Source of the DNA: a virus
Virus record (IMG/VR): IMGVR_UViG_3300027833_000133
Coordinates: 1 to 33,919 of that record
Length of the DNA: 33,919 bases
Strand: one strand, 5' to 3'
In this document: positions 27,960-33,792 of the stretch, piece after piece
Layout: each line of letters begins with the position of its first letter
Position numbering within the stretch: the stretch's first letter is position 1
The notes under the pieces: generated by a model
What the model was told of the DNA's origin: nothing
Databases searched by the model: none
The model's input: only the letters and a program-made list of their open reading frames with translations
Made by a program: the position numbers and the translations under genes

Positions 27960-27988
27960 TTGCAAATTAATTTACAGATTGCTATTAT
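27960..27988 (+). promoter_or_regulatory. Rightward early promoter
   Basis: TTGCAA (27960-27965), a 17-base spacer, TATTAT (27983-27988). Predicted start near 27995, about 22 bases before the regulator ATG at 28017. The -35 box lies in the palindrome at 27961-27976, so binding there would block it, as in Cro-type autoregulation. Confidence 0.55.
27961..27976. promoter_or_regulatory. Palindromic operator in the divergent control region
   Basis: TGCAAATTAATTTACA is a 16-base near-perfect palindrome (only the third and fourteenth bases break symmetry). The half TTAATTTACA occurs again at 27923-27932 on the -10 of the leftward promoter, and TATTATGTCA occurs at 27943-27952 and 27983-27992. The likely ligand is the helix-turn-helix protein encoded at 28017. 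Confidence 0.58.
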
Positions 27989-28016
27989 GTCACCTCACTT
28001 AACAAAGGAACAAAGC

Positions 28017-28217
28017 ATGAACATTATTAAAGCGTTATCTTTCTATATGGAACAGCAGGGCTGGACTAAAGCAGAGCTTAACCGCCAGTCTGGTGTGAAC
28101 CTGGCAACCATTAGCCTAGTAATGAACGGTCATCGAGGCGCATCATTAACTACTATGAAGATGTGGTCAGACAGCTTCGGTATTAAGTTGAGCGAGTTTG
28201 TGGCAGCAGGAGAATAG
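28017..28217 (+). CDS. Cro/CI-like small helix-turn-helix regulator
   Basis: 66 residues from the ATG at 28017, preceded by AAAGGA at 7 bases. A TTG 19 codons upstream lies inside the operator and has no ribosome site. The fold is visible: FYMEQQGWTKAELNRQSGVN, then LATISLVMNGHRGASLTTMK, i.e. helix-turn-helix followed by the usual C-terminal helices. No dimerisation or peptidase domain, so it is Cro-sized. It probably controls the divergent promoters directly upstream. Confidence 0.88.
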   Translation: MNIIKALSFYMEQQGWTKAELNRQSGVNLATISLVMNGHRGASLTTMKMWSDSFGIKLSEFVAAGE

Positions 28218-28218
28218 T

Positions 28219-28932
28219 ATGGAGAAGAAAGGGTACTTCGCAATCATCCCTGCATCTGTCAGATACGATAAGCGGTTACCTGCTAATGCCAAGCTGCTCT
28301 ATGGTGAGCTAACTGCTCTGTCCAATGAGAAGGGATACTGCTGGGCTGGCAATAATTACTTCGCTGGTTTGTATGAAGTTAGCAAGACATCGGTGAGCAA
28401 GTGGGTAAGCGCATTGAAGGATGCAGGCTACATTGAAATCCAACTTGAGTATGCAGACAGCACTAAACAAATCTTACATAGGTATATAAGAATAGTTAAT
28501 GACCCTATTGAAGAAAAGTTACATACCTCTATAACAAAAGTTAATGACCCTATTGAAGAAAAGTTAATAGATAATAGTACATCTAATAATACATCTAATA
28601 ATACAATGAATAAGGGGGTTATCACCCCAGAAAAAAAGGTAAAGAAGTCGTTCGTTAAACCAACTCTTACCGAAGTCATTGATTACTGTAATGCAAGTCA
28701 GGCTAACATAGACCCACAGGGGTTCCTTGATTTCTATGATAGTAAGAACTGGATGATTGGCAAGAATAAGATGAAGGACTGGAAAGCTGCAGTAAGGACT
28801 TGGAAGCGGAAGGAAGCTGAGAAGAATAGGGAACGCCATGAAATGATCAAGGCCAAGCAGGTCAAGCAGAACGAGCAGCTTAGAAACAGAACCATTGAAC
28901 ACCAGCTAACTGATACAAGCTGGGCAGATTAA
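28219..28932 (+). CDS. Replication initiator / helicase-loader-like protein (lambda O-like architecture)
   Basis: 237 residues from the ATG at 28219, with AGGAGA before it. Residues 1-75 are a winged-helix domain (GYFAIIPASVRYDKRLPANA, then GELTALSNEKGYCWAGNNYF, then SKWVSALKDAGYIEI), as in phage initiators. Residues 92-135 are a repetitive linker: VNDPIEEKL twice, then TSNNTSNNTMN. The C-terminus (FVKPTLTEVIDYCNASQANI, then WMIGKNKMKDWKAAVRTWKR) is the common DnaD/DnaT-type end of phage replication proteins. It would bind the origin and recruit the host helicase. The DNA of the linker carries direct repeats and may itself be an origin. Confidence 0.85.
   Translation: MEKKGYFAIIPASVRYDKRLPANAKLLYGELTALSNEKGYCWAGNNYFAGLYEVSKTSVSKWVSALKDAGYIEIQLEYADSTKQILHRYIRIVNDPIEEKLHTSITKVNDPIEEKLIDNSTSNNTSNNTMNKGVITPEKKVKKSFVKPTLTEVIDYCNASQANIDPQGFLDFYDSKNWMIGKNKMKDWKAAVRTWKRKEAEKNRERHEMIKAKQVKQNEQLRNRTIEHQLTDTSWAD
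28494..28602. repeat. Iteron-like direct repeats inside the initiator gene, candidate origin
   Basis: A 28-base perfect direct repeat lies at 28494-28521 and 28539-28566 (period 45 bases, in frame, 15 codons). An AT-rich stretch follows with the 12-mer ACATCTAATAAT twice in tandem (28579-28602). Repeats plus AT-rich DNA within the initiator gene is the arrangement of the lambda origin in gene O. Alternatively it is a recent coding duplication. Confidence 0.55.
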
Positions 28933-31242: not shown

Positions 31243-31460
31243 TTCACACCTCTTACAGTTGGCCAGCCATTGACTGTCATTAGTTTGTCATAGGTGGCAC
31301 TAGTTAGGTTATAGACTATAGACCAATAACCGTATTCTTGCATTTGACCCCATAGCGCGCATTTTTCCTGTATATGATTGTGACCACGACCGGCCACGTT
31401 ATATTCTGCCAGCACTGGCCCATATACACTTTTTCGAAACTCTACTATTGCTTGCATCAT
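31239..31460 (-). CDS. Small hypothetical protein
   Basis: 73 residues (MMQAIVEFRKSVYGPVLAEY, later CALWGQMQEYGYWSIVYNLT, ending VNGWPTVRGVK); aromatic-rich and soluble. The start overlaps the end of the cysteine-cluster gene (ATGA). GAGGTG precedes it, and the second ATG (31457) has the better spacing to that site, so the protein may be 72 residues. No family recognised. Confidence 0.7.
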   Translation of the reverse strand: MMQAIVEFRKSVYGPVLAEYNVAGRGHNHIQEKCALWGQMQEYGYWSIVYNLTSATYDKLMTVNGWPTVRGVK

Positions 31461-32215
31461 GCCACCTCAATTGTTTGGATTAGATTGGATTTAAAGTTAT
31501 TTTTGCGTTGACCGTGTACCACGATAGCGATATTTTTTGACTGGCCGTCACATAGGCCACAATCAATACACTGTATACCCTTGCTATCTGATAGGCACTC
31601 GATCTCATTATCGAATAGCGAATCGTCTGGCAGTGCTACACGAAAAGTCTTAGCGCCTAGTGATTGATATTTTAAGGCCTGTTTTGGCGTATCTGCTGAG
31701 ACCTGACAAAGTAACAGGTATCGACGATCAAAGTTTTTATGGGCTATCTGGTGAGTGTATCCAGTGTGGACGCTTGAAAGCCTCACTAGTGGCTCGAATA
31801 CTTCAAAGGGTACAGCAGCGGGATCACCATAGGCACCAAGTCTAAGTGCGCGACCCTGTAATATGTGGGCATGATCGTCAGCGTTATATGTTGGATAGAG
31901 TCCTTTTTTATAGCTACGGAACACGCTTAATGGTGCTTGGTGCGTCATTACATAACAGGAGCCGTTCGAGTGATGCCGCTGTGGGCAATTTCCACAAACG
32001 CTTTTATCCTCACCTGTTTTGATTGCTTGGTGTGGCTCTATATCACTGCGCAAAATCCACGTTTGAACCATTGCACCTGTTTTAGCGTTACTGGTCTCTA
32101 GTGTGGCTATTACTACAATGGGCTGTCCATCTAATACGCTGGCACCATCATATAGAATAAAGCCTTTTTGTTTTGGTTTTGCTATTGGCTTTTTTGATTG
32201 GCTAAACTTTCGCAT
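31457..32215 (-). CDS. Conserved uncharacterised phage/plasmid protein with two cysteine clusters
   Basis: 252 residues from the ATG at 32215 (AGGTG 6-7 bases before); a GTG three codons upstream is possible. Visible motifs: a basic N-terminus, CGNCPQR followed by CYV (cluster 1), RALRLGAYGDPAAVPFEVFE, VHTGYTHQIAHKNF, LLCQVSADTPKQALKYQSLG with AKTFRV, then CIDCGLCDG (cluster 2) and IVVHG. I recall this motif series in a widespread phage and plasmid family of unknown function (I believe DUF7227; not checked). The clusters could bind zinc or iron-sulfur. It neighbours an origin-like region, so a replication or maintenance role is possible. Confidence 0.82.
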   Translation of the reverse strand: MRKFSQSKKPIAKPKQKGFILYDGASVLDGQPIVVIATLETSNAKTGAMVQTWILRSDIEPHQAIKTGEDKSVCGNCPQRHHSNGSCYVMTHQAPLSVFRSYKKGLYPTYNADDHAHILQGRALRLGAYGDPAAVPFEVFEPLVRLSSVHTGYTHQIAHKNFDRRYLLLCQVSADTPKQALKYQSLGAKTFRVALPDDSLFDNEIECLSDSKGIQCIDCGLCDGQSKNIAIVVHGQRKNNFKSNLIQTIEVA

Positions 32216-32252
32216 CTGTTTCACCTGTTGTTGTAGTCAAATAATTTTAATA

Positions 32253-32287: not shown

Positions 32288-32518
32288 TTATCTCAAGCTA
32301 TGTTGTTGCTTGGTTAAAACTCTTATATCTGTACAAACATCCCGGATTGCGTCCCGGTGCTCAGGATATAATGAGAATGCTAAATCTCTGATAGCAAAAC
32401 CTTCTGATTGTTTTATTTCAGACCACTCTTTATCACCCATCTCGTTAAAACAACATTGTGCCATTTGGATTGATTTATATTGCTTTATGAAAGTTATTAA
32501 AAATTCTGAATAAGCCAT
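32288..32518 (-). CDS. First gene of the leftward micro-gene operon, hypothetical
   Basis: 76 residues from the ATG at 32518, chosen for its AGGA ribosome site 8-9 bases upstream; the longer reading to 32596 would run into the -10 of the promoter. Sequence starts MAYSEFLITFIKQYKSIQMA; the middle is acidic and Trp-containing; the end is basic (DIRVLTKQQHSLR). Cys at 22, 23 and 64 region. It is promoter-proximal and could be the operon's regulator, but I see no clear DNA-binding motif. Confidence 0.7.
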   Translation of the reverse strand: MAYSEFLITFIKQYKSIQMAQCCFNEMGDKEWSEIKQSEGFAIRDLAFSLYPEHRDAIRDVCTDIRVLTKQQHSLR

Positions 32519-32575
32519 TTTGTTTTTCCTATATATGTAGTAAGTAAAATTCTGTTTTCGTTGTTGTTGGGTCGC

Positions 32576-32603
32576 ATTATATAGAGGCATTACCATATGT
32601 AAA
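32576..32603 (-). promoter_or_regulatory. Promoter of the leftward micro-gene operon
   Basis: Minus strand: TTTACA (32603-32598), a 16-base spacer, perfect TATAAT (32581-32576). Predicted start near 32569, about 50 bases before the ATG at 32518. Paired direct repeats lie directly upstream (32621-32652). Confidence 0.7.
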
Positions 32604-32620
32604 GGATGTTTTGTTTTTTT

Positions 32621-32652
32621 GAGTTGAATGGGGCCAAATGAGAGTTGAATGG
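32621..32652. repeat. Two GAGTTGAATGG repeats 21 bases apart
   Basis: GAGTTGAATGG is exact at 32621-32631 and 32642-32652, start to start 21 bases, i.e. two helical turns on one face. They end about 18 bases upstream of the -35 box of the leftward promoter, a usual place for activator or initiator-protein binding. Confidence 0.6.
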
Positions 32653-32664
32653 TATTAATTGATC

Positions 32665-32716
32665 ATTTTTTGTACAATTAGATGGACTAAGTTGGTTATT
32701 TTTTATACAATCGGAT
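32665..32716. repeat. AT-rich 19-base direct repeats, origin-like
   Basis: ATTTTTTGTACAATTAGAT at 32665-32683 and ATTTTTTATACAATCGGAT at 32698-32716 agree at 16 of 19 positions and start 33 bases apart (three helical turns). The first overlaps GATCATTTTTTGT, which resembles the 13-mers of the bacterial DNA unwinding element. It could be the melting region or iterons of the origin at 32882. Confidence 0.5.
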
Positions 32717-32846
32717 CAAAGGGTTGTAAATAAAGTGATGGGTGAATATAGGTTTTACCACTATATAGAGCTAAGAATCTGACAGAATGGGATAGTTGCG
32801 CCTTGTAAATGTATAAGCTGTTATTATCCTGTACATATACAGTAGG

Positions 32847-32966
32847 ATATACAGTACTGGATGGATAAACAGTGCCAGGTATTGTCCACAGGTTATCCAC
32901 AGGGTATCAACATAGTTATCCAAGAGGTTATCCACAGGTTATCCACAGGGAAAAAGTACTGTCTAT
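32847..32966. repeat. Inverted repeat enclosing the DnaA-box array
   Basis: ATATACAGTACT (32847-32858) and AGTACTGTCTAT (32955-32966) are inverted copies matching at 11 of 12 bases. They stand symmetrically outside the DnaA boxes. The left arm overlaps the second of two tandem ATATACAGTA units (32835-32844 and 32847-32856). Confidence 0.5.
32882..32947 (+). other. DnaA-box array, probable replication origin
   Basis: Three exact consensus boxes TTATCCACA begin at 32893, 32928 and 32939. Three degenerate ones begin at 32882 (TTGTCCACA), 32904 (GTATCAACA) and 32916 (TTATCCAAG). Successive starts are 11, 11, 12, 12 and 11 bases apart, one helical turn each, all in the same orientation. The surrounding 400 bases (32650-33047) hold no convincing gene. 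This fits loading of host DnaA at a phage or plasmid-type origin. Confidence 0.72.
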
Positions 32967-33047
32967 TTATACAGGTACCCCCCTCCCGAAGTGTCGCGTT
33001 GTGTGTATATAGAGGTCTCTCGCAAAAAAAAATTACTGAGAAATAAG

Positions 33048-33221
33048 ATGATTAAAATAGTAACAGATGAAGAAGTACATGAGATGGATATTGAGTTGAT
33101 TGAACTATTTGCAGTGTATCTATTCGACAAAGATGTAGTTGGTATGACTGATTTAATCTATGTTGTAGAAGATAGAATGGCAGTTAGTGGAGAAAATGAC
33201 TACCTTGAAACTCAAAAATAA
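33048..33221 (+). CDS. Small acidic hypothetical protein upstream of terS
   Basis: 57 residues from the ATG at 33048 (a weak GAG site 9 bases before). A longer reading from 32991 adds a basic stretch with no ribosome site. Sequence starts MIKIVTDEEVHEMDIELIEL and is Asp/Glu-rich. First gene of the rightward packaging operon after the origin-like region; no clear promoter found for it. Function unknown. Confidence 0.65.
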   Translation: MIKIVTDEEVHEMDIELIELFAVYLFDKDVVGMTDLIYVVEDRMAVSGENDYLETQK

Positions 33222-33250: not shown

Positions 33251-33616
33251 ATGTCTAGGATAGGAATCCCCAACAAGAATAAGAAGTTCTTACTGGCTCG
33301 CCTACAGGATATGTATGGTGAACAGTTCCACCCTATCTTGAAGATGGCAGAAGCTGCTAGTAAGCTGGACTACATTGCTGAGGAAGAAGGTGATGTCACC
33401 GCCCTTAATGCTGCTGTTAATGCCTGGAGTAAGGTTGCTGAGTACACTGAGCCTAAGCTGAAGGCTGTAGAGATAAGAGCTGACGAGGGCGCTGTAGTAG
33501 CAATCCAACGTAAACGCTTTGATGGTACTGCTATTGAGGCAGAAGTCGTAGAAGTAGACCCAGTGGTAGAGGCAATCGTCAATGCTGCTGTAGATGATGA
33601 TGAGGATGAAGAGTAA
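33251..33616 (+). CDS. terS: Probable small terminase subunit (TerS)
   Basis: 121 residues, two genes before terL, the place of the small subunit. N-terminal half: NKNKKFLLARLQDMYGEQFH, then ILKMAEAASKLDYIAEEEGD, a helical bundle with the look of a DNA-recognition/oligomerisation region. C-terminus: beta-prone (VVAIQRKRF) and a strongly acidic tip (VDDDEDEE). AAAGGTAATAT precedes ATG. TerS proteins vary greatly in sequence, so this rests on size, order and architecture. Confidence 0.68.
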   Translation: MSRIGIPNKNKKFLLARLQDMYGEQFHPILKMAEAASKLDYIAEEEGDVTALNAAVNAWSKVAEYTEPKLKAVEIRADEGAVVAIQRKRFDGTAIEAEVVEVDPVVEAIVNAAVDDDEDEE

Positions 33617-33792
33617 TGGCTAAAGGTAAGAGTCTGGTACATAAGCTAGACAAAGAAACACAGAAAGAACACTTCCCCAACCACCATGCCAAACTAAACG
33701 GTGGTAAGGGTAGCGGTAATCGCAAATCAACTCCTGAGACTCGCGAGAAGTTTAAAAGTGGCTATGATGGAATCGACTGGAGCAAGAAATAG
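33616..33792 (+). CDS. Small basic protein between terS and terL
   Basis: 58 residues: basic start MAKGKSLVHKLDKETQKEHF, then PNHHAKLNGGKGSGNRKSTP, and an aromatic end KSGYDGIDWSKK. Begins by overlapping the terS stop (TAATG) and its TAG overlaps the terL GTG, so the three are translationally coupled. The order suggests a packaging accessory, and the composition suggests nucleic-acid contact. No family recognised. Confidence 0.7.
   Translation: MAKGKSLVHKLDKETQKEHFPNHHAKLNGGKGSGNRKSTPETREKFKSGYDGIDWSKK

Follow-up and report, generated by a model that had tools for sequence, protein, structure and literature searches.

The genome of an uncultured marine phage carries, directly ahead of its putative packaging genes, a helically phased array of six head-to-tail DnaA boxes that is far beyond chance expectation. 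As the best explanation, to which we give slightly less than even chances, we propose that this array is an exchangeable docking platform for host DnaA that heads the packaging and late region and acts via sequestration of DnaA and/or a local effect, with replication proceeding mainly from a candidate origin within a lambda-O-like gene. The window (that is, the whole stretch analysed, 33,919 nucleotides of virus record IMGVR_UViG_3300027833_000133) has overlapping ends, position 33792 onward repeating the start of the record, which gives a circular map on which the array lies just before the terminase genes (terS and terL). The array consists of the following elements:

32882–32947, + strand: array of six head-to-tail DnaA boxes, located by sequence scan and also found at the matching site in relatives
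32882, + strand: box 1, TTGTCCACA
32893, + strand: box 2, TTATCCACA (exact)
32904, + strand: box 3, GTATCAACA
32916, + strand: box 4, TTATCCAAG
32928, + strand: box 5, TTATCCACA (exact)
32939, + strand: box 6, TTATCCACA (exact)

The boxes follow one another at steps of 11, 11, 12, 12 and 11 bp over 66 bp, and three of the six are exact. Scored as a phased chain (units with at most two mismatches at 11- or 12-bp steps), the array reaches 13, whereas the highest value among 150 Markov-simulated genomes of equal length was 4, and TTATNCACA occurs six times in the window against 2.0 expected, with three of these occurrences inside the 66-bp array. The surrounding segment (32597–33047) contains no recognisable gene, only short mechanical open reading frames, and is flanked by a leftward gene (32288–32596) and a rightward gene that starts at 33048. 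The 9-mers fit TTATNCACA, lie on the same strand and are separated by 2–3 bp, and a 2-bp gap is also that of the Escherichia coli oriC arrays, in which it puts DnaA on one helix face (PMC4451416). The earlier note, which had described three exact and three degenerate, helically phased boxes at 11–12-base steps in a gene-free segment, was thus accurate in its account of the array itself.

Both the composition and the spacing of the boxes point to DnaA. Among 109 distinct units from relatives, conservation is lowest at box position 5, which is the N of TTATNCACA (0.66 bit), and highest at positions 2 and 6–9; as this pattern of degeneracy matches the specificity of DnaA, the boxes are DnaA boxes by composition. 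Helical phasing is also general, given that pairs of TTATCCACA in IMG/VR viral contigs peak at steps of 11–13 bp (73 pairs), 20–22 bp (40) and 32–34 bp (24) and are scarce in between (6 at 14–19 bp and 3 at 25–28 bp), whereas a reversed control pattern showed only 3-bp periodicity. From these features we infer that DnaA binds the array.

Between the array and the terminase genes lies a conserved block, followed by a small gene:

32959–32974, + strand: CTGTCTATTTATACAG, which fits the LexA/SOS-box core CTGT-N8-ACAG without mismatch and is located between the array and the C-tract
32978–32990, + strand: conserved C-tract CCCCCCTCCCGAA, 30 bp past the last box, retained in relatives whether or not they have the array
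33005–33035, + strand: conserved TATATA...GTCTCTCGCAAAAAAAAATTA block, a candidate promoter −10 region or bend/packaging element
33048–33221, + strand: g57, a small conserved protein and first gene past the block, with a homologue in locus L211
33251–33616, + strand: putative terminase small subunit (terS), assigned by its position before terL, with no strong family match
5–1465, + strand: terminase large subunit (terL), which comes after terS in the circular map

The distance from C-tract to A-tract is 52–56 bp in relatives, and their arrays are likewise phased and are anchored 13–37 bp from the C-tract. Other features were noted nearby. A one-mismatch LexA/SOS-box-like sequence, CTGGATGGATAAACAG (32857–32872), brackets the array together with CTGTCTATTTATACAG; two imperfect 33-bp repeats with TTTTTT-TACAAT occupy 32649–32714, and a similar sequence, TTGATCATTTTTTGTACAATCGG, adjoins the C-tract in L144 and L147. 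The gene at 31457–32224 (− strand) encodes a 255-amino-acid phrog_2554 protein, relatives of which occur in 148 isolate phage records (Mycobacterium, Klebsiella, Gordonia and others); the protein is also found near DnaA arrays in L029, L061, L090 and L104.

Comparison of close relatives shows that the array is exchangeable and dispensable and that it works, if at all, in either direction. The gene at 33251–33616 has relatives at 53 loci in IMG/VR, many of which have DnaA boxes at an equal distance upstream. Array state in 35 relatives (window included) was forward in 8, reverse in 12 and none in 15, so that the expectation of an array at the same place in related phages holds for 20 of the 35 and fails for the remainder. 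The terS tree requires at least 12 changes among the three states and at least 8 for presence and absence, several of them forced by well-supported branches. Relative to the fixed AT-rich block, both orientations occur at one site; inversion of the whole segment was rejected as the source of the flipped arrays, given that the left flank CCAGGTATT points the same way in both types. Array-less relatives have other sequence at the array site, for example 21-bp repeats in L146. Upstream of terS in L133, L141 and L146, GTCAAGATCAAGACAAAAG-like sequence replaces the array (with a 21-bp period in L146); RctB iterons were considered for these three loci (CAAGATCAAGA; TTGATCATTT in the window) and dismissed as a mere resemblance, the match to the published motif (PMC7174414) being loose. 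In L211 (TerL 83% identical; contig binned as a Piscirickettsiaceae metagenome-assembled genome), gene order is changed and array, C-tract and A-tract form a single unit that is placed between terS and the next genes, which indicates that the array unit is not simply the terS promoter. Together with two other matches to metagenome-assembled genomes, L211 suggests gammaproteobacterial hosts, the binning of phage contigs not being firm. Among named isolates, six TerL relatives and the examined stretches of five further isolate records had no array. A BLAST query made of synthetic boxes likewise matched no isolate phage or plasmid, a result that probably reflects the low-complexity filter.

The earlier note had read the array as an origin on the ground that this T7-like phage is without a DNA polymerase. 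Neither a family-A DNA polymerase nor a DnaB-type helicase was found in this genome, in agreement with the first part of that argument; the largest gene products are assigned to terminase, virion or tail functions or, where unassigned, lie within the virion block. The label ‘T7-like’ fits loosely, the closest isolate by TerL being Burkholderia phage BcepC6B at 50% identity and all other isolates falling below 45%. Podoviruses without a polymerase are known, among them the MPP-C cyanopodoviruses, the replication of which has been called unexplained (PMC9860041). The present genome has a lambda-like set, comprising an HTH_36 initiator, a Sak annealing protein, a YqaJ/RecE-like exonuclease, NinB and NinG. 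For phages with such a replication set, absence of a polymerase is normal. The region that bears on replication is as follows:

27960–28217: Cro/C1-like regulator
28225–28932, + strand: lambda-O/DnaD-like replication initiator (HTH_36; phrog_19658, E = 1.8e-28)
28487–28567, + strand: four iteron-like sites within the initiator gene, 22–23 bp apart (starts 28487, 28510, 28532 and 28555)
28565–28614, + strand: AT-rich run (82% AT) after the iterons, a candidate unwinding element of a lambda-type origin

With its iterons and AT run, the O-like gene looks like a lambda-type origin, and it is a better candidate for the main origin than the array, which is 4.3 kb away. Across relatives, iteron copy number in this gene differs (region 28466–28615) and the 82% AT run is nearly invariant even where the protein differs. 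The gene is conserved at 75–96% both in relatives with the array (L437, L440, L443 and L446) and in one without it (L447, 75%), and a tie between array type and O gene was rejected on the basis of this conservation across array states. GC skew tracks gene direction and was uninformative as an origin marker.

Strong arrays are not confined to this family: a scan of IMG/VR recovered them in some 50 contig clusters that are unrelated and differ in their genes, and terminase genes are the commonest families among the proteins that flank them. Where a terminase was identified (30 records), the array lies within 3.2 kb upstream of it in 22, with 10.1 expected, and within 3.2 kb downstream in 2; against a null of random noncoding positions this gives P of about 5e-8, a value that is somewhat flattering, as are the P-values generally, because the 3.2-kb limit was chosen after the distances had been seen, and that null does not fully part proximity to terminase from location in the largest gap. 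The bias is weaker when the set is restricted to contigs of at least 20 kb (8 of 16 versus 3.0 expected, P = 0.003). Arrays often occupy the largest intergenic gap, which is also the place for an origin, and some unrelated arrays are far from terminase. G/C tracts occur near 54 of 120 arrays, compared with 12% of background stretches; the isolates Ss1 and VA-RY-3, neither of which has an array, also have such tracts upstream of terS. A G5-N-G5-like tract precedes terS in several phages that are only distantly related, whether or not they have DnaA boxes; positions of G/C tracts include 32978–32990 in the window, about 1248 in L210 and about 5687 in L206. A family-A polymerase is encoded in 6 of 33 array-bearing records and a DnaB-type helicase in 8–9 of 33, and the existence of array phages with their own polymerase and helicase means that arrays are not a mark of polymerase-less phages.

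These observations bear on whether the array could be a main or auxiliary origin after all, at which a host DnaA filament would open the adjacent AT-rich block and load host DnaB, as at oriC or at DnaA-assisted plasmid origins. The boxes match the DnaA consensus exactly, with oriC-like gaps of 2–3 bp, the array is intergenic with AT-rich flanks (52–74% AT), it recurs at one site in relatives, neither a helicase nor a polymerase of the phage's own was detected in the genome, and in L015 the array is approximately 0.5 kb from an O-like gene. However, a lambda-type origin candidate exists within the O-like gene, 15 of the 35 relatives lack an array, the direction of the array flips with respect to the fixed AT-rich block rather than keeping a constant direction towards an unwinding element, arrays occur in phages that have their own polymerase and helicase, and the longest DnaA-trio run at the array is at most 3. 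We regard an origin, main or auxiliary, as the chief rival to the platform, possible if on balance unlikely. The DnaA-box match, the phasing and the recurrence in relatives uphold the DnaA part of the earlier reading, and it is the step from a missing polymerase to an origin that is not supported; for part of the family, array-less relatives share the same initiator gene, and related genomes that lack the boxes are what the earlier note had itself named as counting against it.

Three further explanations have less in their favour. If the array were part of a cos or pac site, the C-tract block would be where terminase recognises or cleaves the DNA, and the array would tune packaging, for example by acting as a roadblock of DnaA or as a bend, in keeping with the position of arrays upstream of terS and terL across unrelated phages, the G/C tract near terS in Ss1 and VA-RY-3, both without an array, and the joint movement of array unit and C-tract in L211. 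We consider this quite unlikely, as TerS proteins 93–98% identical to that of the window occur in relatives with and without boxes (TerS was rejected as a reader of the boxes on the same evidence) and contig ends upstream of terS, as judged from locus starts, appear to be dispersed and not to pile up at a single base. Operator iterons for a phage-encoded regulator, with a site that resembles a DnaA box by accident, would suit the Cro/C1-like regulator gene and the location of the array between divergent operons, yet identical sequence and phasing recur in the roughly 50 unrelated clusters and the degeneracy of the units follows DnaA, making this very improbable. Slippage can yield tandem 11-mers and the region turns over fast; nonetheless, a functionless chance or low-complexity repeat expansion is very unlikely, given that degenerate units stay in phase, the information profile resembles that of DnaA sites and unrelated phages have arrays as well.

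The docking platform that we favour draws on sequence, phasing, conservation pattern, position bias and the O-gene candidate: the DnaA-like specificity of the units with phasing that is general in viral contigs, the joint travel of array, C-tract and A-tract, an array that is dispensable and orientation-free, an O-like gene, with four iterons and an AT run, that is conserved with and without arrays, and the occurrence of arrays near terminase and in phages with their own replication enzymes. The weaker bias on long contigs, the frequent location in the largest gap, the arrays far from terminase and an 11-bp spacing identical to that of oriC argue against it. Under this model, host DnaA would assemble on the array as a cooperative same-face oligomer. 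The array itself is an accessory cassette that occupies a fixed position immediately before the C-tract/TATA/A-tract block. The genome would probably be replicated mainly from the lambda-type origin in the O-like gene with the host replisome. As phage copies increase, the arrays may soak up host DnaA such that new host initiations stop, and the DnaA oligomer may act on the neighbouring late and packaging block; the array may also aid helicase loading as an auxiliary origin. A more specific version, to which we give a slender chance, is a copy-number sensor: unrelated phages would repeatedly have placed phased arrays where the packaging and late region begins, DnaA would act at the block while genomes are few, and rising copies would titrate DnaA, an effect that would switch the block and at once shut down initiation in the host.

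Should DnaA bind the arrays, a docking site for the host initiator would lie beside the packaging genes of many environmental phages, whatever replication enzymes they encode, and would tie the control of host replication to the copy number of the phage and to its packaging or late expression. This would correct the view that such arrays simply mark a phage origin and would bear on origin prediction in viral genomes. A literature search on DnaA boxes, terminase and phage, incomplete in its coverage, yielded papers that, judged by title, concern bacterial genomes, and one report of a Pseudomonas phage for which software had predicted an origin with DnaA boxes.

DnaA arrays as such are already known, and the phage array can be set against several systems. 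With the E. coli oriC arrays (R5M-tau2-I1-I2 and C3-C2-I3-C1; PMC4451416) it shares head-to-tail DnaA sites that are 2 bp apart on one helix face; however, its sites are near-consensus and strong, whereas those of oriC arrays are weak, and the phage has a single array, the direction of which varies between relatives, with an unwinding element that is only a candidate. With four iterons inside it and AT-rich DNA after them, the O-like gene resembles the lambda-type origin, which sits in the O gene, although here the origin candidate is 4.3 kb from the DnaA array and a separate P-like loader was not recognised in the genome. P1 oriR, RK2 oriV and pSC101 are DnaA-assisted iteron plasmid origins with boxes beside the Rep iterons; clustered DnaA boxes and a replicon-encoded initiator are common to these and the phage, but the phage has its boxes, which are dispensable, kilobases away from its iterons. 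Loci of the datA type are box clusters that titrate DnaA and are not origins, and the phage array, if it titrates DnaA, would likewise be a non-origin cluster, differing in being phage-borne and in adjoining the terminase genes.
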